IMG/VR virus record: IMGVR_UViG_3300029787_000281
Span: 1-26,125 of that record
Length of the DNA stretch: 26,125 nucleotides
Source of the DNA: a virus
Direction: 5' to 3' (one strand)
Numbering within the stretch: position 1 is the first letter of the stretch; each line of letters starts with the position of its first letter. The translations under genes were made by a program, and so were the position numbers. A model generated the notes under the pieces. It saw nothing but the letters and a program-made list of their open reading frames with translations, was not told the DNA's origin and did not search any database. Of the stretch, positions 9,584 to 26,125 are shown in pieces.

Positions 9584-12500
9584 ATGCCTGAGATTAAGCA
9601 TGTTTTCAATCAAGGTAAAATGAACAAAGACCTTGACGAAAGACTAGTAGAAAATGGTCAATATAGAGACGCAATGAATATACAAGTGTCGACTTCAGAA
9701 GGTTCTGACGTTGGTGCTGTTCAGAATATATTAGGTAATTTAAATTTATTTGAAAATAGTAAGTTGGCGCCTAGCGCAAAATGTGTTGGCGCTATTGCTG
9801 ATGAAAAAAATAATTGTTTTTACTGGTTTGTTTATCATGATACAAAAAACTTAATACTAAAGTATGATAATAGTGTTAAGTTTGTTTTTGTAGATATACA
9901 TGGTATTTTAAAATTTACTGAAGAATTAATAACTGGTATAAATATAGTTGATGATTTTTTATTTTGGACAGATAACAATTCAGAACCTAAAAAAATAAAT
10001 ACTATTCTTTGCGAAGAAGGTACTGATCAATCGGGATTTTACCATACAAATTTAGTTGTACCAAAAAAATTTATTACAAAAAGCAATTGTATAAAAATAC
10101 AAGAAGAACATATAACTGTTATTAAAAAATCACCTAAAACTAAACTTGTATTAGATCCGGTTTTTGAAAAAAATATAAAATCTAAAACTGAGTTTAATTT
10201 TTCATCAATAAACGTCGGTGATATTGTACAAATTACTTTTTTTGATTTTCCTGTTTTTATTTCAGGTTATAAAATTAACGATATACTTACTATTACAAAT
10301 ACTAGCGGTGATCAAGCTGCTAGAGTTAAAGTAACAGAAGTAGTACTTGCTTCAAATGGTGATTATAAAGTTGAAATATTATCAATAGTACCTGAAAATA
10401 TAACAAGCGGTAAATTTTCATATGATGTTGAAAAAGAAGATGCAAGTGATTTGTTTAAAAGAAAGTTTATAAGGTTTGGTTATAGGTATAAGTATGAAGA
10501 TGGTGAGTATTCTAGCTTTTCACCTTTTACTGATGTTGTTTTTAAACCAGATCTTTTTGAATATTCAGCTAAAGACGCTTACAACAAAGCAATGGAAAAC
10601 AATTTAATTTCTTTAAAATTAAGAAATTTTGTTACTGCGGAAATGCCTGAAGACGTTGTACAAATTGATATTCTTTATAAAGAATCAAATTCACCTATAG
10701 TTTATATTGTTGATAAATTAAAATATCAAGATCCAACACAAGTAACAACTGGTGGTGTTGAGAAAAATTATATAAATGCTAATTTATATGAAATTACTTC
10801 AGATCTTATATTTACTGTTGTTAGTTCTAATCAATTATTAAGAGCTTGGGACAATGTGCCTAGAAAAGCAAAAGCACAAGAAATTACCGGCAATAGATTA
10901 GTTTATGGTAATTATGTTCAAAACTACGATGTGATTAAAAAACCTATTTTACAAGCTGGTTTTGTAGATAGATTTAATAATGACATAACTTTTATAAACA
11001 ACTATTTAGATAATCAAACTGAAATTATCACACCAGCACAACAAGTTGTCTTACCTTTGTACGGTCAAAAATCTTTAAAATCAATAAGAAACTATCAATT
11101 AGGAGTGACTTATTTAGATAAATATAACAGAGAAACTCCTATATTTACAAGCTCTGAATCTATATTTAAAATTCCTAAAAAATATGCTGACAATGAATTA
11201 AAAATTACTGGTCAAGTTAGAACTTTAGCGCCTGACTGGGCAGAGTCTTTTAAAGTATATATTAAAGAAACATCTACAGAGTATTATAATTTAGCCATGA
11301 GTAGAGTTTACAATGCTGAAGATGGTAATGTTTGGCTTGCTTTTCCTTCTGCTGAAAGAAATAAAGTAGATGAAGAAACTTTTTTAATATTAAAAAAATC
11401 TATAGGCAATAACAGTTTAGTTGAAGAAGAAGCTAAATATAAAGTGTTAGCAATAGAAAACGAAGCACCTGAATATATAACTGAAGAAACTATTTCAATA
11501 GCAGAAATAAGTTGTGGTGGTTCAACTAGTTCTACAAATGTTTTTGGTATATATAGCCCTGTTGTTAACTCAAGAGAATTTAGAATAGTAGAAGGTGCTT
11601 GGCAAAATACTACTGCAGAGCCTTTAAATGAAATTACAGAAGATTTAGTGTTTTATTTCAAAAACACGTTAACTAACGAGCACACAAAAACTTATGAAAT
11701 TAAATCTGTTTCTTTAGATAATTCATATTATAAAATAACTTTAGATAAAGTTTTTGAAACTCAAGACGCTGAATTAATTTATCCTAATTACCCAACAACA
11801 ACAAGCGGTGGTGTTTTAGATTTAGACACTAACTTGCAAATAATTATTTCTAAAAAACAAAGTATTACTGAAAGCTCTCAGTTTAAGGGTATGTTTTTTG
11901 TAAAAATTAATAGAGATGCTGTAGTTGAAGAAAATGTTTTAATTAATCAAAATTTTAATGATTACGAAATATTTAACAGCATGCCAACTCATTATTTTGC
12001 TGATAACTATGCAATGCCAGGTTTTACTGGCGGAAACACGTCAACAGTATTAAATTTGTCAATTACTAATTGGCCACAACTTCTTGATTATGGTGGAGAA
12101 TCAAACGCTTTATTCCCAGAAAATCACGAGTTTGCAAATCCTGGAGATCCTATGGGTGGGTTTTTTATTGACAAAGCTTGGCACGCTGGTATTCAACCAG
12201 GTGGAGGTACTAGTAATGCAAACATTAATTCTAGTTCTCACGTATGGGGAAGTGCTCGTAATTTAATACAAGCTTGGAGAGACGAAACTTTTGTTGCAAT
12301 AGGTAGTCCTTCTTCTCAACTTAATCCTAGCATGAACGTATTTCCAACTGCGTTGCAGTGGGAAAATTCTTTTTCTTCTGTTTTTGAAAAATTTAAATTT
12401 TACAATTTTGTTCATAATTGGTTTTCAAACACAAGAAAAGATCTTAACAATCAACCTGGGACAATTGTAAACGTAGGAGTGCCTAGTGTTGTTCAAAATG

Positions 12501-15112
12501 TAACGTGGTATAATCCTGACACTGGCCAACAAGACTCTCTTCCAGCAAGTATCGATTATGCTCGTAATCCAGCTTTTGGTAAAGGGATATATACAGGTCA
12601 AAACGGCGGTCATTTTGTAGAAGTTTCTTTTTCAGGTATTTCACCTGACACTAACATCGGATCATCTTTAGGTGGAACAAATGGCAATCAATTGCAATAC
12701 GGTAATTTTAATAACACTAGTGCTTTTGATATTAGAGTAAATCAAATTACTCAAGAAGAATACGCGCAAAACTACAGCACAACAAATGACAAGTTATTGT
12801 CTATAGCAAACAACATGGTTGTTGGTAAACGTTTTAAAATAAGATCTGATGATAATTTTGAAAATATTTATAAAATAATAGGTGTTGAAAGAATTAGAAG
12901 ATATAACAGCATACCTTTTTTACAAATTGTTAAAGCTTATTATCAATATAGAAATGATAATAATTATGAAACTACTTTTACACAACAGTGGGGTCAATTT
13001 GGTAAAAAATGGAATAGAAGATATACTTTTAGATTACAACTAGACCACAGCTTAGAAGATGTTCAAATAAATAACAAAAGCATAACACACGCAGATAATT
13101 CAGGTATAGAAAAAAGTGTTTCATTTCAGTTTTTAGAGCCAAAATATAACACTACAACAAAACAAAAAATATCTGAAAATCCAGCAATATGGGAAACAGA
13201 ACCTAAAGAAACTGCTGATTTAGACATTTATTATGAAGCTAGCGAAATAATACCTTTGAAATTAAACGAAAAAAACAATCAAAGTTTTATACCATTGGGT
13301 AGTGTTGTTACTTGTCCAGCTAGACCTAACACTATAAACGGTCTTGTTTATGTTGTTTCTTGGAATAGTAATAAAATAACTTTTAACGCACCGATAGATT
13401 TAGATGAGTATCTTCCAATTGGAGCAAGTTTAGTAAGATTATATTTTACAAGGCCAGATAACTCATACACAACTTTAGCTATAGATGTAGAAGCTACACT
13501 AGCGACTTCACCAACTGGACTTATGTCTGACAGTTCACTACCACCTAATACTTATATAGTAAAAACAAATGTTAGTAAAAATCCATTTGCACTTTCCTGG
13601 TACAACTGTTATTCTTTTAGTAATGGTGTAGAATCAAATAGAATACGTGATGATTTTAATCAACCAATTATAGATAAAGGAGTAAAAGTTAGTACTATTT
13701 TAGAAGAAAATTATGAAGAAGAAAGAAGAAGTAGTGGATTAATATATTCTGGTATATACAATACTAACAGTGGTATTAATAATTTAAATCAATTTATACA
13801 AGCAGAAACAATTACTAAAGATTTAAATCCAACATATGGTAGTATACAAAAGCTATTTAGTAGAAATACTGATTTAGTTACTTTTTGTGAAGATAGAGTT
13901 ATAAGAATACAAGCAAATAAAGATGCAATATTTAATGCTGATGGTAATCCTCAGTTAATAGCTTCTAATAGAGTTTTAGGACAAACAATGCCATTTGCTG
14001 GTGATTACGGTATAAGTAAAAATCCAGAAAGTTTTGCTGTAGATAATTATAGAGCTTATTTTACAGATAAACAAAGAAGTGCTGTGTTAAGGCTTTCTAT
14101 GGATGGTATAACGCCAATATCTGAGTATGGTATGTCTGATTATTTTAAAGATAATCTTAAGCTTAATGATAAACTAATAGGTAGTTTTGATATTAAAAAA
14201 GGCGAGTACAACTTAACAATGCCTAATATTGATAAAAGTGTTTCTTTTAAAGAGTCCGTTAATGGTTGGGCAAGTTTTAAGTCTTTTGTTTTAGAGCAAG
14301 GTGTTAGCATGTCTGGTAATTATTATACTTTTAAAAATGCTTTACCACATCAACACCACAGTGAAGAAGTTGATAGAAATACTTTTTATGGAAAATATGT
14401 TTCCTCTTCTATAAGTGTTTTATTAAACGATGTGCCTAGTGCAATAAAAATGTATAAAACATTAAATTACGAAGGATCACAATCTAATATTGATCAAAAC
14501 ATTACAGGTGTAGAAACTGGTTATTACAATTTAGAAAATAAAGATGGTTGGAAATCAAAAATAAAAACAGACAAACAGGTTGGTTCTGTTTCAGAATTTA
14601 TAGAAAAAGAAGGTAAATGGTTTAATTTTATTAAAGGTAATAATTTTAATAAAGTTGTTGATTTAAAAACTAAAGAGTTTTCTTTTCAAGGTGTAGGTAG
14701 ACCAACTGAATTTGAAATTGATATTAATAAATACAAACCAATTACAGGTTGTACTAATCCAAAAGCAACTAATTATAATCCCGAAGCTATAATTGATGAT
14801 GGAAGTTGTTTTTTAACGCCGCCTGAAACTGATATAGTTGTTGGTGGTTGTATGGATCCAAATTCTAGCAACTATAATCCTGACGCTACTTATGATGATG
14901 GTAGTTGTAACGTTTTATGTGACGCTATTCTTGGCTGTACAAATCCAAATGCTATTAACTTTGATCCTAATGCAACTCAAGATAATGGCTCTTGCATATT
15001 ACCAATATACGGTTGTACAAATCCAAATGCTAGTAATTACGATGCCTCTGCTAACGTTGATGATGGCACATGTTTATTTGAAGACATTGATGATCCAGTT
15101 GGTGGAGCGTAA
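9584..15112 (+). CDS. Giant tail nozzle protein (P22 gp10-like stabilisation protein) with C-terminal Cys repeats
   Basis: The protein has 1842 residues. The start HVFNQGKMNKDLDERLVENG and QYRDAMNIQVSTSEGSDVG matches what I recall of proteins named stabilisation protein in marine phages, similar to P22 gp10, which forms the nozzle below the adaptor ring. The segment at about bases 13720-14230 (LFSRNTDLVTFCEDRVIRIQ, AYFTDKQRSAVLRLSMDGI) has the beta-rich look of a propeller. Residues about 600-1300 are Asn/Ser/Gly-rich beta sequence, probably added domains, since P22 gp10 is only about 470 residues. The last 120 residues carry four Cys-pair repeats, listed separately, that could bind the host surface. 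No signal peptide is seen. It follows the adaptor gene by 3 bases. Nozzle identity is fairly sure; the host-binding idea is inference. Confidence 0.75.
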   Translation: MPEIKHVFNQGKMNKDLDERLVENGQYRDAMNIQVSTSEGSDVGAVQNILGNLNLFENSKLAPSAKCVGAIADEKNNCFYWFVYHDTKNLILKYDNSVKFVFVDIHGILKFTEELITGINIVDDFLFWTDNNSEPKKINTILCEEGTDQSGFYHTNLVVPKKFITKSNCIKIQEEHITVIKKSPKTKLVLDPVFEKNIKSKTEFNFSSINVGDIVQITFFDFPVFISGYKINDILTITNTSGDQAARVKVTEVVLASNGDYKVEILSIVPENITSGKFSYDVEKEDASDLFKRKFIRFGYRYKYEDGEYSSFSPFTDVVFKPDLFEYSAKDAYNKAMENNLISLKLRNFVTAEMPEDVVQIDILYKESNSPIVYIVDKLKYQDPTQVTTGGVEKNYINANLYEITSDLIFTVVSSNQLLRAWDNVPRKAKAQEITGNRLVYGNYVQNYDVIKKPILQAGFVDRFNNDITFINNYLDNQTEIITPAQQVVLPLYGQKSLKSIRNYQLGVTYLDKYNRETPIFTSSESIFKIPKKYADNELKITGQVRTLAPDWAESFKVYIKETSTEYYNLAMSRVYNAEDGNVWLAFPSAERNKVDEETFLILKKSIGNNSLVEEEAKYKVLAIENEAPEYITEETISIAEISCGGSTSSTNVFGIYSPVVNSREFRIVEGAWQNTTAEPLNEITEDLVFYFKNTLTNEHTKTYEIKSVSLDNSYYKITLDKVFETQDAELIYPNYPTTTSGGVLDLDTNLQIIISKKQSITESSQFKGMFFVKINRDAVVEENVLINQNFNDYEIFNSMPTHYFADNYAMPGFTGGNTSTVLNLSITNWPQLLDYGGESNALFPENHEFANPGDPMGGFFIDKAWHAGIQPGGGTSNANINSSSHVWGSARNLIQAWRDETFVAIGSPSSQLNPSMNVFPTALQWENSFSSVFEKFKFYNFVHNWFSNTRKDLNNQPGTIVNVGVPSVVQNVTWYNPDTGQQDSLPASIDYARNPAFGKGIYTGQNGGHFVEVSFSGISPDTNIGSSLGGTNGNQLQYGNFNNTSAFDIRVNQITQEEYAQNYSTTNDKLLSIANNMVVGKRFKIRSDDNFENIYKIIGVERIRRYNSIPFLQIVKAYYQYRNDNNYETTFTQQWGQFGKKWNRRYTFRLQLDHSLEDVQINNKSITHADNSGIEKSVSFQFLEPKYNTTTKQKISENPAIWETEPKETADLDIYYEASEIIPLKLNEKNNQSFIPLGSVVTCPARPNTINGLVYVVSWNSNKITFNAPIDLDEYLPIGASLVRLYFTRPDNSYTTLAIDVEATLATSPTGLMSDSSLPPNTYIVKTNVSKNPFALSWYNCYSFSNGVESNRIRDDFNQPIIDKGVKVSTILEENYEEERRSSGLIYSGIYNTNSGINNLNQFIQAETITKDLNPTYGSIQKLFSRNTDLVTFCEDRVIRIQANKDAIFNADGNPQLIASNRVLGQTMPFAGDYGISKNPESFAVDNYRAYFTDKQRSAVLRLSMDGITPISEYGMSDYFKDNLKLNDKLIGSFDIKKGEYNLTMPNIDKSVSFKESVNGWASFKSFVLEQGVSMSGNYYTFKNALPHQHHSEEVDRNTFYGKYVSSSISVLLNDVPSAIKMYKTLNYEGSQSNIDQNITGVETGYYNLENKDGWKSKIKTDKQVGSVSEFIEKEGKWFNFIKGNNFNKVVDLKTKEFSFQGVGRPTEFEIDINKYKPITGCTNPKATNYNPEAIIDDGSCFLTPPETDIVVGGCMDPNSSNYNPDATYDDGSCNVLCDAILGCTNPNAINFDPNATQDNGSCILPIYGCTNPNASNYDASANVDDGTCLFEDIDDPVGGA
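14747..15073 (+). repeat. Four Cys-pair repeats encoding the C-terminus of the tail protein
   Basis: Four 63-base units lie at 14747-14809, 14846-14908, 14933-14995 and 15011-15073, coding residues starting at 1722, 1755, 1784 and 1810. Each encodes 21 residues of pattern GC-x-[ND]-P-x(3)-[NI/SN]-[YF]-[ND]-x(2)-A-x(2)-D-[DN]-G-[ST]-C. Acidic residues and Asn sit at positions that resemble a calcium-binding loop, and the two Cys could form a disulfide. Repeats of this kind are frequent in secreted and surface proteins of Flavobacteriia. Linkers shorten from 36 to 24 to 15 bases. Confidence 0.9.
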
Positions 15113-16809: not shown

Positions 16810-17658
16810 ATGCCAGTAGGTAAAAAGAAAAGTCCGGCAAAATTTTTAGGTGCTGTAGCTCTTGGTTTAGGAGTTGTACAAGGCGCTAGTCAAATTATTG
16901 GTGGTATAAGTGAAAGAAGAAGACTAGCAAAAGAAGGTGATAGGGCTAAACGACAATTTAAAAGAAATTTAGGTGATTTACAAGGTATGAAATTTGAAAA
17001 TCCATATGCAGATTTGCAAACTCAATTTGAAAATCCATATGAAGATTTAACTGTAAATCAACAACAAGCTCAGTTTCAAGCTGAACAAGGCGCGCAAGCT
17101 AGAGCTAATATATTACAAAGCTTACAAGGTGCTGCTGGTGGTAGTGGTATTGCTGGTTTAGCACAGTCTTTAGCTAATCAACAACAACTACAAACACAGC
17201 AAATATCTGCTGATATAGGAAGACAAGAATCAGCTAATCAAATGGCAACTGCACAGGGTGCTGCTAACGTTCAAGCTGCAGAAGCTCAAGCGCAAATGAA
17301 CGTTCTTAAAGGTGAAGACATAAGACAGTCAAGAGAAAGACAAAGAACAATGGATATAATGAGCTTAAGATCTGGCCAGCAAGCACTGCAAAGAGATATA
17401 AGACAACAAAGAGCAGAAGCATCACAACAAATAATTGGTGGTGTAGGTACTTTAGGTGGCGCTGCTTTTGATGCTTACACAGGCGGTGTATTTAGCGGTA
17501 GTAACAAAAGTGTTACTGGAGGTTTAGGTTCTCAAAGCGGCGGCTTTGGAAATGCTGGTTTTGGAGCAAGAGTATCTGATTTTGATCCAACTGTTAGAAT
17601 AGATCAGTTTGGAAAAACTCAATTTAAAGATTTAAGTAATTTAAAAATAGGAGGATAA
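16810..17658 (+). CDS. Probable internal (ejected) virion protein
   Basis: The protein has 282 residues. A basic start (MPVGKKKSPAKF) is followed by a hydrophobic Gly/Ala segment at about residues 12-30 that could insert in a membrane. Next come a charged helix with ERRR, a tandem FENPY repeat (residues 62-83), and a long Gln/Ala-rich helix to about residue 200 (QQQAQFQAEQGAQARANILQ). The tail is Gly-rich and ends VRIDQFGKTQFKDLSNL. This architecture, a hydrophobic N-terminus plus a Gln-rich helix, is that of small podovirus ejection proteins such as T7 gp14 or P22 gp7, which leave the virion first and form a channel in the cell envelope. The sequence SLQGAAGGSGIAGLAQSLAN is one I recall from many marine phages. 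The gene overlaps the next by one base (TAATG), so they are probably translationally coupled. Confidence 0.65.
   Translation: MPVGKKKSPAKFLGAVALGLGVVQGASQIIGGISERRRLAKEGDRAKRQFKRNLGDLQGMKFENPYADLQTQFENPYEDLTVNQQQAQFQAEQGAQARANILQSLQGAAGGSGIAGLAQSLANQQQLQTQQISADIGRQESANQMATAQGAANVQAAEAQAQMNVLKGEDIRQSRERQRTMDIMSLRSGQQALQRDIRQQRAEASQQIIGGVGTLGGAAFDAYTGGVFSGSNKSVTGGLGSQSGGFGNAGFGARVSDFDPTVRIDQFGKTQFKDLSNLKIGG
16993..17058 (+). repeat. Tandem 33-base FENPY repeat
   Basis: Two adjacent 33-base units at 16993-17025 and 17026-17058 begin with the same 16 bases, TTTGAAAATCCATATG, and encode FENPYADLQTQ and FENPYEDLTVN. The NPY-D-L units may be a short binding motif used twice. Confidence 0.7.
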
Positions 17659-18959
17659 TGGCAAATTTATTTCAAATAGGATATGGTGGTGGACCACCAA
17701 AAGCAATAGACTACTCAAAGGCGTTAGATCCTTTGGCTGAAAAAATTACTACTAGAGTAAAAGAAAGCAAAGCTAAAACTGATGTTTTAATTAACAATAT
17801 GCCTCAAGGTGTACCTATTGATAAAGTACCTGAACAATTACGTGGTCAAGTTACAGATTTTTTAACTCAAAATAAACAGGCATATGTAGACGCATCTAAA
17901 GTTATTGCTAGTGGTATACCATCTACAGATCAAAGATACATCGATGCCGTATCAACTATAAATCAAGTCGATGCTAAATTTAAAAACTTAAGTAACACGC
18001 TTGAAGATATTGCTTTAAAAAGACAAACCGCGTTAGATAATAGAGATCACTCTAGTGGTTCTCTTGATTGGGAAATAGGTGACCATGAAGATTTAGCAAA
18101 CGGAGACATGTACTCTAAGTTTCAAATACAAGATGACGGTGGTTTTACTTATCAGTCTAATGACAATGTAACTAAAAACTGGAAAGATTATTCTAATACT
18201 TTTCAAACTAACAACGCTGGTCAAGAAGGATTTTTTAGTTTAGAAGAAATGGCATTAAAAGATGGTGATAATGGTAGAGATTTTAATAGACGTAGATTTG
18301 AAAATAGATTTGATTCCTTAACAAAAGGTTTAAAAAATAAAGGAGCTAGAGATTTTGTTTTTGCTGATGATGATTTTATTGCTCAAAAAACTGGTACTGA
18401 AGTTGGTACTGAAGAGTTTGAAACTGCTAAAAAACAATTAGTAAACAAAGGTAATTTTGATGAGTTATTAGTTGAATATAAAAAGTACGGCGTTAATGAA
18501 CTTGAAAAAATACACAAATTAGCAGTAGGTGAATATAATAAAAAGCTAAACAAAACTACTCCTGGTAGAGATAACTTTCCAACAAGTTATGGGCAAGGTT
18601 ACATTACAAGAAATGCTGCAGAAAATATATTAAACGATATAAAAAACAAAAAACCTACTCAAACTTTTGACAAAACAGCTATTTCTTATGACAAAGATAA
18701 TAAATTATACGTAGATGCAGAAGGCACCACTTATACTAATTACGATATTTTAAGAGGTCATGAAATATGGGATCAAGGTTACAGAATTGAAGAGTTTGAT
18801 CCTGAAAACACAAGACAAAAATACGATTTTCTACCTGAAAACGATATAAAAGTACCTGAGCCAATTGAATCCCAAGGTTTATACAACGTTCCTGGTGGTG
18901 ATTATGGCCCTCAAGGACTGCAACAGCTTGATGATCAAATAGAAAATTTAGAAAAATAA
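17658..18959 (+). CDS. Unknown protein in the internal virion protein cluster
   Basis: The protein has 433 residues. I recognise no domain. The start MANLFQIGYGGGPPKAIDYS is Gly-rich, followed by a helical stretch to about 130 (DPLAEKITTRVKESKAKTDV), then mixed Asp/Asn-rich sequence (DNRDHSSGSLDWEIGDHEDL) and a long charged helical part (residues 200-330). The C-terminus is Gly/Pro then helical (NVPGGDYGPQGLQQLDDQIE). It has no membrane segment and no Cys. Between a probable ejected protein and the giant polyvalent protein, it is best guessed as a second internal or ejection protein. Its ATG overlaps the stop of the previous gene. The GGAGG string at 17650-17654 is too close to the ATG (3 bases) for a normal Shine-Dalgarno site and codes for Gly-Gly in the previous gene. 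Confidence 0.5.
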   Translation: MANLFQIGYGGGPPKAIDYSKALDPLAEKITTRVKESKAKTDVLINNMPQGVPIDKVPEQLRGQVTDFLTQNKQAYVDASKVIASGIPSTDQRYIDAVSTINQVDAKFKNLSNTLEDIALKRQTALDNRDHSSGSLDWEIGDHEDLANGDMYSKFQIQDDGGFTYQSNDNVTKNWKDYSNTFQTNNAGQEGFFSLEEMALKDGDNGRDFNRRRFENRFDSLTKGLKNKGARDFVFADDDFIAQKTGTEVGTEEFETAKKQLVNKGNFDELLVEYKKYGVNELEKIHKLAVGEYNKKLNKTTPGRDNFPTSYGQGYITRNAAENILNDIKNKKPTQTFDKTAISYDKDNKLYVDAEGTTYTNYDILRGHEIWDQGYRIEEFDPENTRQKYDFLPENDIKVPEPIESQGLYNVPGGDYGPQGLQQLDDQIENLEK

Positions 18960-18962
18960 TTG

Positions 18963-21900
18963 ATGGCTAGATATAGAGACGCTACAGGTATTTACAATAT
19001 AGACGAAAGAGATGTTGATCGTTTTGAACAACAATTTCCAAACGCTGTGCGTTTAGATAGCGATTATTTGTTAAGAAAACAAGAAGAAGAAATATCTGCT
19101 GGTGAATTTTTTACTGACTTAGCAACAAGCGTACCTCAAGCTCTTTTAAAAACAGCTGGTGGTGTTGTTAATTATTTAGAGGCTGGTGAAAGAACTTTAA
19201 GAGATTACATTTATAGAGATTTAGACGAAAAAGAAAAAGCTGAAAGAATTTCATATATAGAAGAAAATGGCTTTTCACTATTATCTAAAGGTAATGATAA
19301 TATTTTTTCTAATGCAGGCGCTTATTTTGATCAATTTGATATAAAAGCTGATAAGTCAATAACAGAAGAACTAGATCTTACAGACCCTTCAACTTGGGGT
19401 AGAGCTGGTGCTAGAGCTGTTGTGGCTGGTATAGAGTCTTGGCCATCTATAGCTGCTGCTTTTTTAGGCGCCCCCGCAATGATTGCACTAGGTGTTTCTT
19501 ACGCTGGAAATAAATTTGAAGAAGAGCTAGCTAAAGATCCAACAAAAGGTATGGGTGAGCTTTTGTTAAACGCTACTGGTACTGGGGCTATTGAAGCTGG
19601 TTTTGAAATGGCTACAAGAGGTTTGTTTAAATACGCTGGTATTGTTGGTAATCAAAGTGGTGCTGCAGCCGCAAAAGAAGTGTTAAAAGGTGGTTTTGTA
19701 GAAGTGTCAAAAAAATTAAGTGGTGGTTTTGTTTTTGAAGGTGCTTCAGAAGCTGCTACAGAACTCGCTAATAATGTTTGGGATAGTATGACTATAGAAG
19801 GTAGAGAAATGCCTACTATAGCTCAAATGAAATATCAACTTGGAGATGCGTTTTTAGTTGGTGGTTTAGTTGGTGGTACAATAACAGGTTTTGGGCAAAT
19901 AAACAATAAAAGCAAAGCAGTTGTTGACAGAGCTAATATAACTTTAATGCCACTTGAAGACAAAGGCCAAATACAAGAAAAAGCCGAGCAAATAAAAAAA
20001 TTATATATAGATAGATCAAGAGCTAAAAGAGTAAAGAATAACGAGAAAGTTTTGCGGAAAATAGACACGCAAATTACTTTTTTAAAATCAGATATTCAAA
20101 GAATACAAGACAAAAATCTTAACGCTTTACAAAACATGAGTAATGAAAAGCTAAAAGATTACGCTACAAATGTTACAGAAATAAATACTTTAGTACAAGA
20201 AATAAAAGATAATCCAGGCAACTCTACTGTAAAAAATTTAAATCAAGAAAACATACGTTTGCTTTCTGAACAAAACAAAAACTTGCGTAACGAAAGTTTA
20301 CAAAATATAGTTGGCAAACAACTTGACTCTGTTGAAACTTTAATTCAAAAAGCAGAAGAAAAAGGATTAAAAATAACAGTGCAAAAGGGTGATAATGAGG
20401 CAATGCAAAAGTTTGCTCAAGAAAGAGGTCAAGATGCGGATTTGAAAGGTAGTACTAAATATGGTGGTTTTATACCTGTTTTTGACAAAAAAGGTAATAT
20501 TACAAGTTTAGATCTTTTTATTAATGAAAAAAATTCTATTAAAAATGGCTTTTTAAATACCGCGGCTCATGAGTTTTTTCATGCGGCAATATTCTCTACT
20601 TTAAAGCAGAATATAAGTGCTCAATCATCTTTAGGCGATGCTTTAGTAAGAGCTTTAAAAGCTAAAGGTGCTACTATTAAAGAAAGCAGTGATCTTAACG
20701 AAAGAATAGCCTCTTACACACCAGAGCAAGGTCAAGGTGAAGAAGTTTTAGCTTTAATAATAGAAGCTTTAAAAAATAACGAAATAAATATTAACGAAGG
20801 CTTTGTTCAAGGCTTAAGAGATGCTTGGAGAAGATTTGGCCAGCAATATTTAGGCGTTGAAATAAGGTTTGATACTGATCAAGATGTTTTAAATTTTGTA
20901 AAAGATTATATTAAAACTATAGACAATCCTGCAAAGTTAAACGACGCTATGCTTGGTTTAATTACTAAGGGCGCTGAAGGTAAACTTTTAGAAGTTGCTA
21001 AAGGTGAAGACGCGGAAGTTCAAGCTTTTTCAAAAGAAGCTTCTGACAATGTACAGCAATTGTACGAAAATAGAGCTGATAACGCAAGTTTTGAGTTTGA
21101 TATTATAGAACAATTCAAACCTATTGTAGGTAAAATAGTTGATAAGCGTAAAGATGCTCCTAATTTTGACAGACAGTTATTAACTGATGAAATAGAAACT
21201 GGACAACGTGGTATATTAGATTTAATTAGAGAATATAAACCAGAATCTGACGTGCCATTAGCAGCATATATAAATAAATTTTTACCAGCAAGAGCTATTG
21301 AAGCATCAAGAAGAGTTTTAGGTGAAGAGTTTACAGAAGATGTAACAGAAGCTAGAGGTGTTATTGCTGAAGAAACCGCAGATGTAGAAGTTGAAACTAA
21401 AAGAGAGCAAAAAGAAACTGTAGTTGCTGATAGACTAGACGTTAGTGAACAAGCTGCAAAAACTATTGAAAAAGTAGCACCTGATTTAGACTTTGAAAAC
21501 TTAAATTATAAAACATTAAAAAATCAATTACCTGATATAGTAGGTGAGTTGTTTGGTATAAAACCAGAAAAACTAACAACACTAGCTAATTTAACTAAAA
21601 AAGAAATACAAGCAGCACAAATGTTTATTAATAAGAATGCAGATTTATTAATAGCGTTATTACCTGAAGGTGCTACAGCTAGTGGTACCGCTACAGGCGT
21701 GCCTAATACTTTATTAAAAGCTTTTTATACTAAAACTGATAGAGCTAAAGCAGCTACAACTGGTAGTAGAGCAGGTTTAGCAATACAACAAAAAAATGAT
21801 ATAGATAGGGAAATATTTTTAGAAACATTTGGTATTATTAACGGTAAGCCAGATCGTACTGATAGAAATATATCCGCTAGAATTTTAGCTATAGCAAATG

Positions 21901-24900
21901 TTACTGGTCAAGTTATAACAAACCAAACAGTTAGACAAAATCAAAAAGCTTTAGATATAACGCAAAAAGCTATTGATAGAATAAAAGATGGTAAGTCTAA
22001 AATAATGTTTAGTCAAGCTGGTATAAGAAAGCTTGCTGTAGAAGCTGGTTTGCCTATAGCACCAACAAATATAAAAACTAAAGATAGAAAATCTTTAAAA
22101 AACTTTTTAATAGATTTTTTTGGAGAACAAGGCATACCGCTACCTGGAAGATTACATAGGGCTACATATGCTAGAGGAAGTAAAAGCAAAGGTAACGACT
22201 TTGTTGTAAAAAACTACTATATGTCTGCAAACGAAGCAACTATATTAGCTAAAAAAATACAACAAAAACAATTAAGTCGTAAAAAACCTTTTACTAAAAA
22301 AGAACGAGCATTAATAGAAGAAGTTTTTAGATCTAAAATAGACGATTTTAATAAACTTGGTAATAACTTAGAATTATTAAAAAAAGGAGTTGTTTATTAT
22401 ATAAAAAATTGGGATAAATTTATTAATAGCAATAAATTTGGAAACAAAAGAAATTTACTTGAGTTTGAAAAGCTTTTACAATCTTCTTCTGTAGCAAAAA
22501 CACATGTAATGAGAATGATGGCTTCTGCGCTTGGAAAAACAAATGTTGATAAAATTGTTGAAAAAGAACACCCTTTTGTTCAAAACAAAGCGGGTGAATT
22601 TATATTTAGTGCTCTTGCTAGCGACAATGTTGATTTAGTTTTACCTTGGTTTATTGAAAACTATTATATGATAGGTTTAAGTCAATCTCAAAATGCTTTA
22701 TTAAATAAATATAAACAAAGCATGCCTGAGGTTTTTTATGAAAACTTACAAAAAGCAATAGAAGCTGGTGATATGTCTTTAGCTAGTGATCCGTTAATAA
22801 GGTATACAATTTCTAATATAAATTTATCTGAAATAAACTGGCATAGTGGTGGGAATTTATTACAACACATAGATAAAAAATATGGCTTTGATGGTAGCTT
22901 AAGTTATAGTAATGGTAACGCTACTACTGTAGAGCAAGTAAACGAAGTGTTAACAGAGTTTTTTGCTAAAAGAATAACACTACAACAAGCTAAAGATCAA
23001 GTTAGTGTAATATCAAATGTAAATTACACTAAAGACATTAAATCTACTGAGGTGTTAAACAAAGCCGTTAACAAAAATAGGATGGCAGCTTCTAAAGATC
23101 CTAGAGGTATTACTGTTTTAGATTTTGATGACACTTTAGCTACAACTGAATCTTTAGTTAGATACACTGGTCCTGATGGGGAAACCGGTACTTTAAATGC
23201 AGAGCAATTTGCTAATACATATCAAGATTTATTAAATCAAGGTTATAAATTTGATTTTTCAGAATTTAACAAAGTAGTAAAAGGTAAAATAGCGCCGTTG
23301 TTTCAAAAAGCTTTAAAGTTGCAAAAAAAGTTTGGTCCAGAAAACATGTTTGTATTAACTGCAAGGCCACCTCAAGCGGCTAAAGCTATATTTGATTTTT
23401 TAAAAGCTAATGGTTTAAATATACCTTTAAAAAACATAACTGGATTAGGTAATAGTACAGCAGAAGCAAAAGCCTTGTGGGTTGCCGGTAAAGTTGGTGA
23501 AGGTTATAATGATTTTTACTTTGCAGACGACGCATTACAAAACGTACAAGCTGTAGAAAATATGCTTGAGCAATTTGACGTTAAACGTAAAGTACAACAA
23601 GCTAGAATACAGTTTAGCAAACCAGCTGATTTAGACAGAATATTTAACAATATAATACAAGATGTAACTGGTATTGAATCTCAAAAACGTTTTGAAAGAA
23701 CTAAAGCTAGAAAGCGTGGGGCTAGTAAAGGAAGATTTAGATATTTTATACCACCATCACATGAAGATTTTGCCGGTTTACTTTATAATTTTATGGGTAA
23801 AGGCAAACAAGGCGACAAACATAGAGACTTTTTAGAACAAGCTTTAATAAGACCTTTGAATAGAGCTAATAGAGAATACGATACAGCTAGACAATCAATA
23901 GCAACCGATTATAAAAATTTAAAGAAAAAATTTCCAGATATTAGATCAAAGCTTAGAGAAAAAACTCCTGATGGTGATTTTGTTTATGAAGATGCTGTAA
24001 GAATATATTTGTGGGATAAACACGGTTATGATATACCAGGACTTAGCCCCGTTGATCAAAAAAACTTAGTTAATCTTGTTAAATCTGATGGAAAATTAAA
24101 AGCTTACGCAGACGCTGTAAACATTATATCAAAACAAGATAATTATGTAGATCCTACAGATGGTTGGGAATCTGGAGATATACGTATGGATTTAGATGAC
24201 GCGACTGGTAGAGTTGGTAGATCACAGTTTTTTGCAGAATTTATTGAAAATGCTGACATAGTATTTTCTACACAAAACTTAAATAAAATAGAAGCTGGTT
24301 ACGGCAAAGGCGTGCGAGAAGCTTTAGAAGACATGTTGTACAGAATTAAAACAGGTAGAAATAGACCTGTTGGTACAAACTCACAAGTAAATAGATTTAT
24401 GAATTGGTTAAACGGTGCTGTTGGATCTGTGATGTTTTTTAATATTAGATCAGCCGTGTTACAGCAAATGTCTTTAGTAAATTATATAAATTTTGCAGAT
24501 AATAATATATTTGCTGCGGCCAAAGCTTTTTCTAATCAAAAACAATATTGGACTGACTGGGCTTTTATATTTAACTCTGATATGCTAAAACAAAGAAGAG
24601 GTGGTATACAGACTGATGTTAATGGTGCTGAGCTTGCAGAAAATATTAGTAAATCAAAATATCCCGCTAGAGCATTAATAAGACAGTTGTTGCAAATAGG
24701 TTTTTTACCTACACAAATTGGTGATAATATTGCTATTGCAACTGGTGGTGCTACGTATTATAGAAATAGAATAAATAAATATTTAAAAGACGGTTTAAGT
24801 CAAAAAGAAGCTGAAGCAAAAGCTTTTACTGATTTTCAAAATATAACACAGTCAACACAACAGTCTGCTAGACCTGATATGATTTCACAGCAACAAGCAT

Positions 24901-25709
24901 CTGTATTAGGTAGACTAGTTCTTGCTTTTCAAAATGTAACGTCTCAATTTAATAGGCTTGGTAAAAAAGCTGCTCAAGATATATACAATAGAAGAACAAC
25001 ACCTCCTAATTCAACTTTATTACAAAGTGATGTTTCTAATACAGCTAGAATAGCTTATTATTTTGGTATACAAAATTTAATATTTTATAGCTTGCAAACA
25101 GCTTTATTTGCCGCCATGTTTGATGAAGATGAAGATCAAGAGTTTTTAACTACTAAAGGACAAAGATCTTTAAACGGCGCGTTAGATAGTATACTTAGAG
25201 GTATAGGTGTTGGAGGTGCTGTAGTGTCTACATTAAAAAACATGGGTATAAAGTTTTTAAATGAAAGAGAAAAAGGTTATAATTTTGACGAATCAGCAGT
25301 TATAGGTGAATTAACTAATTTTTCTCCACCAATTGGTATTAAAATTAGAAAAGTTGTTAACGCTGAGAAAACTCTTAATTGGAACAAGAGCTTAATAGAA
25401 GACATGAGCAAAGGTAACTTTGACAATCCACAGTGGTCTGCTGTTACAAATTATGTTGAAGGTTTAACTAATATTCCTTTAAATAGACTTTACAACAAAA
25501 CTAATAACGTTAGGCAATCTTTAAATAATAATCACGAAGCTTGGCAAAGATTTTTAATGTTTTTTGGTTGGAGTCAGTATAATTTAGATATAAAAAACGA
25601 AGAAGTAGAAAAAGCTAAAGAAGAATTAAAAATTAAAAAACAAAGCAAAAAAAGAGGTTCTAAAGGTTCAAAAAGAAAAATAACAAAAAGAAAAATAACA
25701 AAAAGATAA
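18963..25709 (+). CDS. Giant polyvalent virion protein with zincin-like and HAD phosphatase-like domains
   Basis: The protein has 2248 residues from the ATG at 18963. A TTG directly before it is a less likely start. Order: conserved-looking start (GIYNIDERDVDRFEQQFPNA); Gly/Ala-rich amphipathic helices at about 150-310 with GASEAATE, as in ejected proteins; HEFFH at residues 536-540, an HExxH zincin motif with E593/E594 downstream as a possible third zinc ligand; charged helical regions; HAD-like domain at about 1380-1540 with LDFDDTL (Asp1387, Asp1389), Thr1466 in VLTAR, Lys1503 and FADD (Asp1522, Asp1523), so all four HAD motifs are present; helical region with IPPSHEDFAGLLYNFMGKGK; hydrophobic-helical region about 1810-2010 like phage polyvalent-protein-associated domains; Lys/Arg tail. 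It probably enters the host with the DNA and acts there. The substrates are unknown. The architecture fits polyvalent proteins described in phages. Confidence 0.8.
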   Translation: MARYRDATGIYNIDERDVDRFEQQFPNAVRLDSDYLLRKQEEEISAGEFFTDLATSVPQALLKTAGGVVNYLEAGERTLRDYIYRDLDEKEKAERISYIEENGFSLLSKGNDNIFSNAGAYFDQFDIKADKSITEELDLTDPSTWGRAGARAVVAGIESWPSIAAAFLGAPAMIALGVSYAGNKFEEELAKDPTKGMGELLLNATGTGAIEAGFEMATRGLFKYAGIVGNQSGAAAAKEVLKGGFVEVSKKLSGGFVFEGASEAATELANNVWDSMTIEGREMPTIAQMKYQLGDAFLVGGLVGGTITGFGQINNKSKAVVDRANITLMPLEDKGQIQEKAEQIKKLYIDRSRAKRVKNNEKVLRKIDTQITFLKSDIQRIQDKNLNALQNMSNEKLKDYATNVTEINTLVQEIKDNPGNSTVKNLNQENIRLLSEQNKNLRNESLQNIVGKQLDSVETLIQKAEEKGLKITVQKGDNEAMQKFAQERGQDADLKGSTKYGGFIPVFDKKGNITSLDLFINEKNSIKNGFLNTAAHEFFHAAIFSTLKQNISAQSSLGDALVRALKAKGATIKESSDLNERIASYTPEQGQGEEVLALIIEALKNNEININEGFVQGLRDAWRRFGQQYLGVEIRFDTDQDVLNFVKDYIKTIDNPAKLNDAMLGLITKGAEGKLLEVAKGEDAEVQAFSKEASDNVQQLYENRADNASFEFDIIEQFKPIVGKIVDKRKDAPNFDRQLLTDEIETGQRGILDLIREYKPESDVPLAAYINKFLPARAIEASRRVLGEEFTEDVTEARGVIAEETADVEVETKREQKETVVADRLDVSEQAAKTIEKVAPDLDFENLNYKTLKNQLPDIVGELFGIKPEKLTTLANLTKKEIQAAQMFINKNADLLIALLPEGATASGTATGVPNTLLKAFYTKTDRAKAATTGSRAGLAIQQKNDIDREIFLETFGIINGKPDRTDRNISARILAIANVTGQVITNQTVRQNQKALDITQKAIDRIKDGKSKIMFSQAGIRKLAVEAGLPIAPTNIKTKDRKSLKNFLIDFFGEQGIPLPGRLHRATYARGSKSKGNDFVVKNYYMSANEATILAKKIQQKQLSRKKPFTKKERALIEEVFRSKIDDFNKLGNNLELLKKGVVYYIKNWDKFINSNKFGNKRNLLEFEKLLQSSSVAKTHVMRMMASALGKTNVDKIVEKEHPFVQNKAGEFIFSALASDNVDLVLPWFIENYYMIGLSQSQNALLNKYKQSMPEVFYENLQKAIEAGDMSLASDPLIRYTISNINLSEINWHSGGNLLQHIDKKYGFDGSLSYSNGNATTVEQVNEVLTEFFAKRITLQQAKDQVSVISNVNYTKDIKSTEVLNKAVNKNRMAASKDPRGITVLDFDDTLATTESLVRYTGPDGETGTLNAEQFANTYQDLLNQGYKFDFSEFNKVVKGKIAPLFQKALKLQKKFGPENMFVLTARPPQAAKAIFDFLKANGLNIPLKNITGLGNSTAEAKALWVAGKVGEGYNDFYFADDALQNVQAVENMLEQFDVKRKVQQARIQFSKPADLDRIFNNIIQDVTGIESQKRFERTKARKRGASKGRFRYFIPPSHEDFAGLLYNFMGKGKQGDKHRDFLEQALIRPLNRANREYDTARQSIATDYKNLKKKFPDIRSKLREKTPDGDFVYEDAVRIYLWDKHGYDIPGLSPVDQKNLVNLVKSDGKLKAYADAVNIISKQDNYVDPTDGWESGDIRMDLDDATGRVGRSQFFAEFIENADIVFSTQNLNKIEAGYGKGVREALEDMLYRIKTGRNRPVGTNSQVNRFMNWLNGAVGSVMFFNIRSAVLQQMSLVNYINFADNNIFAAAKAFSNQKQYWTDWAFIFNSDMLKQRRGGIQTDVNGAELAENISKSKYPARALIRQLLQIGFLPTQIGDNIAIATGGATYYRNRINKYLKDGLSQKEAEAKAFTDFQNITQSTQQSARPDMISQQQASVLGRLVLAFQNVTSQFNRLGKKAAQDIYNRRTTPPNSTLLQSDVSNTARIAYYFGIQNLIFYSLQTALFAAMFDEDEDQEFLTTKGQRSLNGALDSILRGIGVGGAVVSTLKNMGIKFLNEREKGYNFDESAVIGELTNFSPPIGIKIRKVVNAEKTLNWNKSLIEDMSKGNFDNPQWSAVTNYVEGLTNIPLNRLYNKTNNVRQSLNNNHEAWQRFLMFFGWSQYNLDIKNEEVEKAKEELKIKKQSKKRGSKGSKRKITKRKITKR
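25671..25709 (+). repeat. 15-base tandem repeat encoding a basic tail
   Basis: Two identical 15-base units (AAAAGAAAAATAACA) at 25671-25685 and 25686-25700, plus a partial third to the stop, encode KRKIT KRKIT KR. With the preceding KKRGSKGSKRK they make a strongly basic C-terminus likely to bind DNA or packaged genome. The repeat is prone to slippage, so copy number may vary between related phages. Confidence 0.8.
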
Positions 25710-26125
25710 ATGAAAAAACTTCTGACACTTCTTTTATTAGTTTCATGCGTAAAAGAAGTTGATGATCTTGGCTTTAGAGTTTATACAATACCAGCTGGTG
25801 AACATAGCTCAGGTAGTTTTTTAAATCACCCAGATAATTCAAGAATAAATTTTAAGTTTATTTTAGATGAGTCAGCTATATACACTAGTGAAATACCAGA
25901 AAACCAACATGATGTAAATAAAATATACGGCATGAGCGACTTTGGCGTAAGACATCAAAAATATTCTATACGTTTAGGTTGGAGGTACATAAATAACGAA
26001 CTAGAGCTTTGTTGGTTAAGACACGAAGAAGGTAGACATAGCTCTGCTACAATAAGAAATATAGAGCCAGATGTAATTTATAACGCTACTATTGATATAA
26101 AAACGTTTTATTATGTAATAGTAAT
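25710..26125 (+). CDS. Small lipoprotein of unknown function (cut by the window end)
   Basis: The ATG at 25710 abuts the stop of the giant gene (TAAATG). 138 codons are in the window and the frame is open at the end. The start MKKLLTLLLLVSC is a lipoprotein signal with Cys13 in a lipobox (L-V-S-C), so the mature protein would be lipid-anchored in the host envelope. The rest is beta-rich: FRVYTIPAGEHSSG, INFKFILDE, DVNKIYGMSDFG, YSIRLGWRYINNELELCW. I recall uncharacterised small proteins from Bacteroidota with the same pattern (IPAGEH, DxNKLYGFSD, ARFGWR). No function is known to me. In phages, host-directed lipoproteins sometimes block superinfection or act at lysis. Both are only guesses here. 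The gene is not in the virion-protein style of its neighbours and may be transcribed on with them. Confidence 0.75.
   Translation, partial: MKKLLTLLLLVSCVKEVDDLGFRVYTIPAGEHSSGSFLNHPDNSRINFKFILDESAIYTSEIPENQHDVNKIYGMSDFGVRHQKYSIRLGWRYINNELELCWLRHEEGRHSSATIRNIEPDVIYNATIDIKTFYYVIV

Follow-up and report, generated by a model that had tools for sequence, protein, structure and literature searches.

A 2248-residue polyvalent-type phage protein with zincin-type and HAD phosphatase-like domains, exchangeable modules and a peptide recurring at its module joints

The window (the whole stretch of DNA analysed here, a virus record of 26,125 bases) belongs to a marine phage with affinities to Bacteroidota viruses. 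A terminase large subunit, a portal and a virion structural protein, recognised with PHROGs, are encoded upstream of one very long gene, whose product is called the giant below. Its reading frame is single and open, encodes 2248 aa and starts at an ATG, although the mechanical ORF list places the start one codon earlier, at a TTG. The portal shares 53% identity with that of an uncultured podovirus, 46.5% with that of Maribacter phage Panino and 44% with those of Flavobacterium elemo phages; these values, between 44 and 53% for Flavobacterium, Maribacter and related phages, support the flavobacterial-type podovirus structural module proposed earlier from the letters alone (the sequence-only reading). 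The structural module is common to Cellulophaga phages phi38:1 (Pervagoviridae) and phi13:2 (Pachyviridae). In the phages just named a giant gene ends the module. The same holds in the window, where the giant closes a structural module of crAss/Pervagoviridae-like type. The main genes of this region are the following.

9584–15112, plus strand: muzzle-like tail protein with a crAss_MUZ_C domain (PF25729, E 1.3e-6, above its cut-off)
16810–18959, plus strand: two genes directly upstream of the giant (16810–17658 and 17658–18959), by position candidate ejection or cargo genes
18963–25709, plus strand: giant modular (polyvalent-type) protein of 2248 aa, a single open frame with hundreds of IMG/VR relatives, last gene of the structural module

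In 85 of 96 loci, a homologue of gene 16810–17658 precedes the giant. Downstream, positions 25710–26123 hold the start of a short gene with a lipoprotein-like signal (MKKLLTLLLLVSCVKE), truncated by the end of the window, and homologues of this gene come after the giant in 14 relatives. The muzzle-like protein (9584–15112) ends in repeated 'GCTNPKATNYNPEAIIDDGSC'-type segments at its C-terminus.

Single-sequence scans of the giant against Pfam, PHROG and NCBIfam gave no match. Likewise, tblastn with the full-length sequence found no match in a collection of 50,697 phage records, and therefore no isolate among these records carries a close relative. In contrast, scans of IMG/VR recovered 38 relatives with the whole protein as query and 247, at least 553 and at least 580 relatives with module profiles. 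The loci that were fetched yielded 156 unique full-length proteins (2068–3620 aa) for comparison, and these were reduced to 147 representatives. The modules recognised in the giant are listed below in order.

19350–19892, plus strand: N-terminal helical module (residues ~130–310), including the hydrophobic helix 163–181
20460–21032, plus strand: zincin-type metallopeptidase domain (residues ~500–690)
21036–21362, plus strand: sigma-70 region-2-like module (residues ~692–800), from PDB profile search, Foldseek and hhalign
21396–22001, plus strand: conserved companion module (residues ~812–1013), with 54% mean column identity in the A9 alignment
22020–23042, plus strand: exchangeable region (residues ~1020–1360), 286–1335 aa long among relatives, few of which align, at low identity
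23100–23606, plus strand: HAD phosphatase-like domain (residues ~1380–1548)
23640–25592, plus strand: C-terminal helical module (residues ~1560–2210), the most constant part of the protein
25587–25706, plus strand: basic tail, the last 40 residues

These modules are not kept equally. The C-terminal module is present in all 156 full-length unique relatives, the HAD profile matches 136/147 representatives and the zincin profile 113/147; the sigma-like and companion modules are often replaced among relatives, and the remaining regions vary freely. In their N-terminal parts, family members are homologous, with E from 1e-7 to 2e-26, to the giants of cultured phages (phi38:1 gp101, phi13:2 gp127, Panino, elemo and MW202828); the elemo giant shows homology in the zincin as well. 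For two of these cultured giants, phi38:1 gp101 and phi13:2 gp127, the annotation reads structural or virion structural protein; gp101 is not mentioned in the phi38:1 proteomics paper. The 'ejection-like helices' of the sequence-only reading were confirmed in part only, by one strong hydrophobic 19-mer (residues 163–181) and by this N-terminal homology to virion-module giants. The basic tail described in that reading is present, with 18 K/R against 6 D/E in the last 40 residues of the giant, and the net charge over the last 25 residues is at least +5 in 122/147 representatives. A Cys/His knuckle such as QCSHIKTSGDRCKMKTTNKSGKCYYHD replaces the plain basic tail at the C-terminus of 46/147 representatives (e.g., the giants of L169, L138, L194, L100 and L065), and a basic tail free of cysteines, as in the 2248-aa giant, is found in 93 others. 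Both the knuckle and the basic tail could bind DNA or serve as a packaging tag.

The C-terminal module has no Pfam match, and PDB searches with its sequence or profile gave nothing significant. With Foldseek against BFVD, its matches (E 1e-12 to 1e-4, probability 1.00) fall in the C-terminal parts of numerous phage proteins, which bear names such as large polyvalent protein, PolyVal ADP-ribosyltransferase, ART-PolyVal and MuF C-terminal. Because of these matches, we file the giant with the phage-type polyvalent proteins, as the sequence-only reading had suggested. It is a very large protein with several unrelated domains, it is encoded beside virion genes, and it has a domain in common with known polyvalent proteins. 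The proteins of the polyvalent survey (Iyer et al., 2017; PMC5512222) are likewise very large, multidomain and encoded beside virion genes, with zincins built on an HEXXH and helices carrying Glu. The giant differs from these surveyed proteins by its HAD phosphatase domain and its sigma-region-2-like module; none of the words 'phosphatase', 'haloacid' and 'sigma' appears in the main text of the survey.

The zincin-type domain contains the following putative active-site positions.

20568–20582, plus strand: HEFFH motif, residues 536–540 (H536, E537 and H540 invariant in 120/120)
20742–20744, plus strand: E594, candidate third zinc ligand, invariant in 120/120

H536–H540 is the sole HExxH of the giant and lies where it had been located from the sequence. 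The Glu pair proposed about 53 residues further on holds for one member only: E594, 54 residues past H540, is invariant, but the neighbouring E593 varies. H536, E537, H540 and E594 are identical in 120/120 zincin domains of IMG/VR relatives, and in the most diverse zincin alignment they are the only invariant columns. At least one HExxH is present in 143/147 representatives and exactly one in 142/147, against 0.01 per protein expected from composition. Among the 34 representatives missed by the zincin profile, 30 still carry at least one HExxH, and the HExxH of representatives without a profile match is mostly of a different flavour, such as HExxHxxD. Weak Pfam matches among relatives point to M78, DUF3267, SprT, M4 and M90, zincin families being the commonest of the weak matches. 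In the AlphaFold2 model of residues 490–1020 (mean pLDDT 85, pTM 0.47), both the HExxH helix and a later helix bearing the third-ligand Glu are seen, in keeping with a putative zinc site in the 530–600 region. This modelled arrangement fits that of polyvalent-protein zincins, for which the survey gives an HEXXH helix, then variable inserts, then a helix with the Glu ligand (PMC5512222). PDB searches with the zincin sequence or profile gave no significant match; no zincin was matched by the profile, and none is among the Foldseek PDB hits shown for the 490–1020 model.

The second putative enzyme of the giant carries the complete set of HAD motifs, DxD, Ser/Thr, Lys and DD in order, at exactly the residues named in the sequence-only reading. 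Each motif is invariant in all 144 aligned rows; 10 proteins occupy two rows each because of an insertion located between motif I and motif II.

23121–23135, plus strand: HAD motif I, DFDDT, residues 1387–1391 (D1387 and D1389; T1391 is also invariant in every aligned row)
23358–23360, plus strand: HAD motif II, T1466 (LTAR)
23469–23471, plus strand: HAD motif III, K1503
23526–23531, plus strand: HAD motif IV, D1522–D1523

The AlphaFold2 model of residues 1363–2218 (pLDDT 79, pTM 0.67) displays the alternating strand and helix order of the HAD core. With this two-domain model as query, Foldseek retrieved the class C acid phosphatase 3pct (probability 0.99, E 0.08) and Legionella Ceg4 (6aok; probability 0.97, E 0.17), and it also links the region to other HAD phosphatases; strand order and Foldseek together indicate that a Rossmann-type core is present. 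The Pfam DUF2608 profile matches 25/25 members (best E 3e-5). Since PDB searches with the HAD sequence and profile gave no significant match, the assignment is based on fold and motifs. Class C acid phosphatases and Legionella Ceg4/DUF2608 proteins have the same HAD fold and motif set; in contrast to the domain embedded in the phage giant, they are stand-alone enzymes or effectors. Stand-alone HADs of about 200–280 residues, with 20–29% identity, also exist in phages and are a possible source of the embedded one. Judging from the alignments, the zincin and HAD sites are not due to chance, as argued for the zincin by the invariance of its catalytic residues in 120/120 domains and by an HExxH frequency far above the 0.01 expectation. 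The conservation of both sites among IMG/VR relatives supports the earlier proposal of two separate enzyme sites in one polypeptide.

Between these two domains lies a module that was absent from the sequence-only reading. The sequence around residues 729–760 (EIETGQRGILDLIREYKPESDVPLAAYINKFL) reads like sigma-70 region 2. When a profile of residues 675–806 was compared with all PDB chains, sigma factors took the top four places (SigK, E 0.042; 8b3z, E 0.049; FliA, E 0.83 and 0.92), none significant alone, and nearly all top Foldseek matches of the 490–1020 model were sigma factors with E of 0.2 or above. An hhalign comparison with 42 sigma sequences scored 27.1 in the register of regions 2.1–2.3, against a mean of 12.7 and a maximum of 23.0 for 100 column shuffles. 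Single members had no match to a sigma family of Pfam, including Sigma70_r2, and the sigma-like profile recovered no sigma factor from seven bacterial genomes. Taken together, we consider it probable that the module at ~690–800 is homologous to sigma-70 region 2. The companion module (812–1013) has highly conserved stretches, e.g., AQMFINKNADLLI and SGTATGVPNTLLKAFYTK, and no recognised fold.

In the variable regions, a scan for known effectors retrieved only a few LPD14, GH108 and SLT matches. The cell-wall enzymes (Glyco_hydro_108, SLT transglycosylase) or LPD14 occur in a few relatives, namely in the N-terminal region of L243 and in A7 members, LPD14, itself a link to known polyvalent proteins, contributing two variable-segment matches, both from relatives. 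The SLT and GH108 matches could suggest that the giant is mainly a DNA-ejection channel whose enzymes serve entry rather than takeover, the protease acting on the envelope and the HAD on periplasmic or membrane phosphate. The position at the end of the structural module and the hydrophobic helix 163–181 are compatible with such a channel. Nevertheless, the cell-wall enzymes are rare, with three protein-level matches in all, and a sigma-like module makes little sense outside the cytoplasm; an entry device of this kind therefore seems improbable.

A further feature that was absent from the sequence-only reading is a short peptide, FS[KR], that recurs at the module joints, usually preceded by one or two residues that are hydrophobic or basic. 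In the giant, three sites are of interest.

21027–21035, plus strand: joint motif FSK (residues 689–691) at the zincin/sigma-like joint, beside a low-pLDDT linker (residues 680–687)
22008–22016, plus strand: joint motif variant FSQ (residues 1016–1018), at a joint where 27/60 relatives have FS[KR]
23613–23621, plus strand: joint motif FSK (residues 1551–1553) at the HAD/C-terminal joint, overlapping a segment with pLDDT below 50 (1550–1552); FS[KR] is nearby in 101/147 relatives

FS[KR] is densest at the HAD/C-terminal joint, with 15.2 occurrences per 1000 residues, followed by the HAD start (11.3), the companion end (9.0), the zincin end (4.5) and the sigma-like start (3.2). Inside the modules the frequency is 0–0.75, with 0.38 expected from composition. 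Linkers were clustered in order to separate recurrence of the motif from shared descent. Mutually unalignable clusters contain FS[KR] in 18/46 cases before the HAD and in 11/43 after the zincin, against 1/41 control clusters taken 100 residues upstream, which rules out chance or shared descent at these two joints; at the HAD/C-terminal joint the linkers form a single cluster, where shared descent is inseparable. The serine of the motif is encoded by AGY in 52% and by TCN in 48% of cases (39% and 61% for all serines of the giants). The use of both codon families indicates that the protein sequence is what is kept, and a DNA recombination site was discarded on this ground. Overall, FS[KR] is enriched 3-fold, and FSE and FSD 2.6-fold, the latter probably because of conserved HAD positions. 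The motif is not universal: it is found in 22–69% of proteins at the four main joints and is absent from all four in 29/147, and in the giant itself one joint has FSQ and another lacks the F.

In principle, a head-maturation protease from another gene of the phage could cut the joints in trans, as a separate head protease is used by many tailed phages. However, the other structural proteins of these phages have just 0.24 FS[KR] per 1000 residues, and the major structural protein and the portal of the window have none; this scarcity counts against a general head-protease site. With no such protease noticed in the fragmentary window either, cutting in trans appears very improbable.

A protease acting in cis is suggested by other features. 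A single HExxH is kept in 142/147 representatives, whatever the cargo, and the combination of a sigma-like module with FS[KR] joints favours a protease that mainly processes the giant itself. A self-cleaving virion polyprotein best accounts for a single protease in each polypeptide, delivery ends that stay constant, cargo that changes and a peptide that recurs at the joints. We thus propose, with slightly better than even confidence, that the giant is a virion-borne, self-cleaving cargo polyprotein of the phage polyvalent class with exchangeable effectors. The N-terminal helical part and the constant C-terminal module would probably take it into the particle and then through the tail and across the host envelope, as crassvirus cargo proteins do. 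Between these ends would lie one zincin protease and a changeable effector set, which in the 2248-aa giant may comprise the sigma-region-2-like module with its partner, a variable stretch and the HAD phosphatase with its intact active site. Most likely, the zincin would cut the polypeptide at FS[KR]-type joints, in the head or just after delivery, and the cut-out effectors would act as separate proteins: the freed sigma-like piece could bind host RNA polymerase, and the freed HAD could dephosphorylate a nucleotide, a nucleic-acid end or a protein.

The location of the gene also favours this polyprotein. The giant follows the muzzle-like gene as the crAss001 cargo follows its muzzle gene, and it has N-terminal family homology to phi38:1 gp101 and phi13:2 gp127, which carry a structural or virion structural annotation and likewise stand last. 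Against it, FS[KR] is absent from part of the family, the cultured-phage giants are without HAD (those of phi38:1, phi13:2 and Panino also without HExxH), the link to sigma factors is weak and the zincin profile has no zincin match in the PDB. Moreover, the N4 virion RNA polymerase, which also has an MPTase domain, is packaged uncut according to the survey (PMC5512222).

This last example supports the main rival, in which the giant is a polyvalent cargo protein that stays unprocessed. In that view, FS[KR] would serve as a linker or as a docking motif, either keeping the modules joined or binding a common partner (e.g., the portal), and the zincin would be directed at a host target. The motif indeed lies in or beside predicted flexible linkers, and zincins can be effectors themselves, as noted in the same survey (PMC5512222). 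In contrast, a docking motif needs no protease in nearly every member, and the single HExxH is kept while the effectors are swapped. We therefore regard an uncut cargo protein as unlikely. Release of domains by polyvalent zincins was already proposed by Iyer et al., with P1 DdrB as the processed and N4 RNA polymerase as the unprocessed example (available text of PMC5512222), where the joint motif is not described and the word 'linker' is not found. To this, the present analysis adds a HAD phosphatase, a candidate site for the cut and a possible cargo of sigma-like type.

Comparison with the closest known systems shows which parts of the giant are common and which are its own. The cargo proteins of crAss001 (gp45, gp46, gp47, gp49 and gp50) are encoded after the muzzle protein, and the muzzle domain is common to both modules (PMC10172136). 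The two systems are likened here by position and content: crAss001 cargo includes RNA polymerase proteins, whereas the 2248-aa giant combines a zincin with a HAD and, at most, a piece resembling a sigma factor. Callevirus phi38:1 gp101 (1691 aa) and Baltivirus phi13:2 gp127 (1990 aa) are also last in the structural module and show N-terminal homology to the relatives (E 3e-17 and 2e-12, respectively), but they are shorter, lack HExxH and HAD, and have no joint-motif array, with FS[KR] totals of 1 and 0. The giant structural protein of Flavobacterium elemo phage (3694 aa) is encoded at the same position, is homologous in its N-terminal part and has a related zincin (E 3.4e-9 by HMM); it differs in having no HAD and only three scattered FS[KR]. 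The N4 virion RNA polymerase (gp50) resembles the 2248-aa giant as a virion-packaged giant that ends the structural genes and has an MPTase domain (PMC5512222), whereas it has an RNA polymerase in place of the sigma-like module and no FS[KR] in the 1675 aa examined.

Self-processing of polyvalent proteins being an existing proposal, the FS[KR] joints, if they are cut sites, would provide a concrete rule for where it occurs. Splitting the giants at the tag would then be a way of listing the effectors encoded in hundreds of genomes of uncultured marine phages. A tentative extension, which we consider more doubtful than the polyprotein itself, is that FS[KR] is a portable tag marking cuts throughout the marine giant family, that exchanged effectors are freed by whichever zincin is present, and that the injected sigma-like module captures host RNA polymerase. 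A virion-delivered sigma-like domain would let the phage seize host transcription at once, and the HAD adds a phosphatase to the activities carried by the polyvalent class.

Some relatives (L274–L289) lie in MAGs from unrelated bacteria and archaea (Maricaulis, Aliivibrio, Woesearchaeota, Ilumatobacteraceae and Bacteroidota), and these are probably misbinned phage contigs. A further contig (L327) of the Ilumatobacteraceae MAG that holds L282 contains an open frame of 2238 aa that weakly matches the sigma-like module (E 0.038) and may be a further phage giant.
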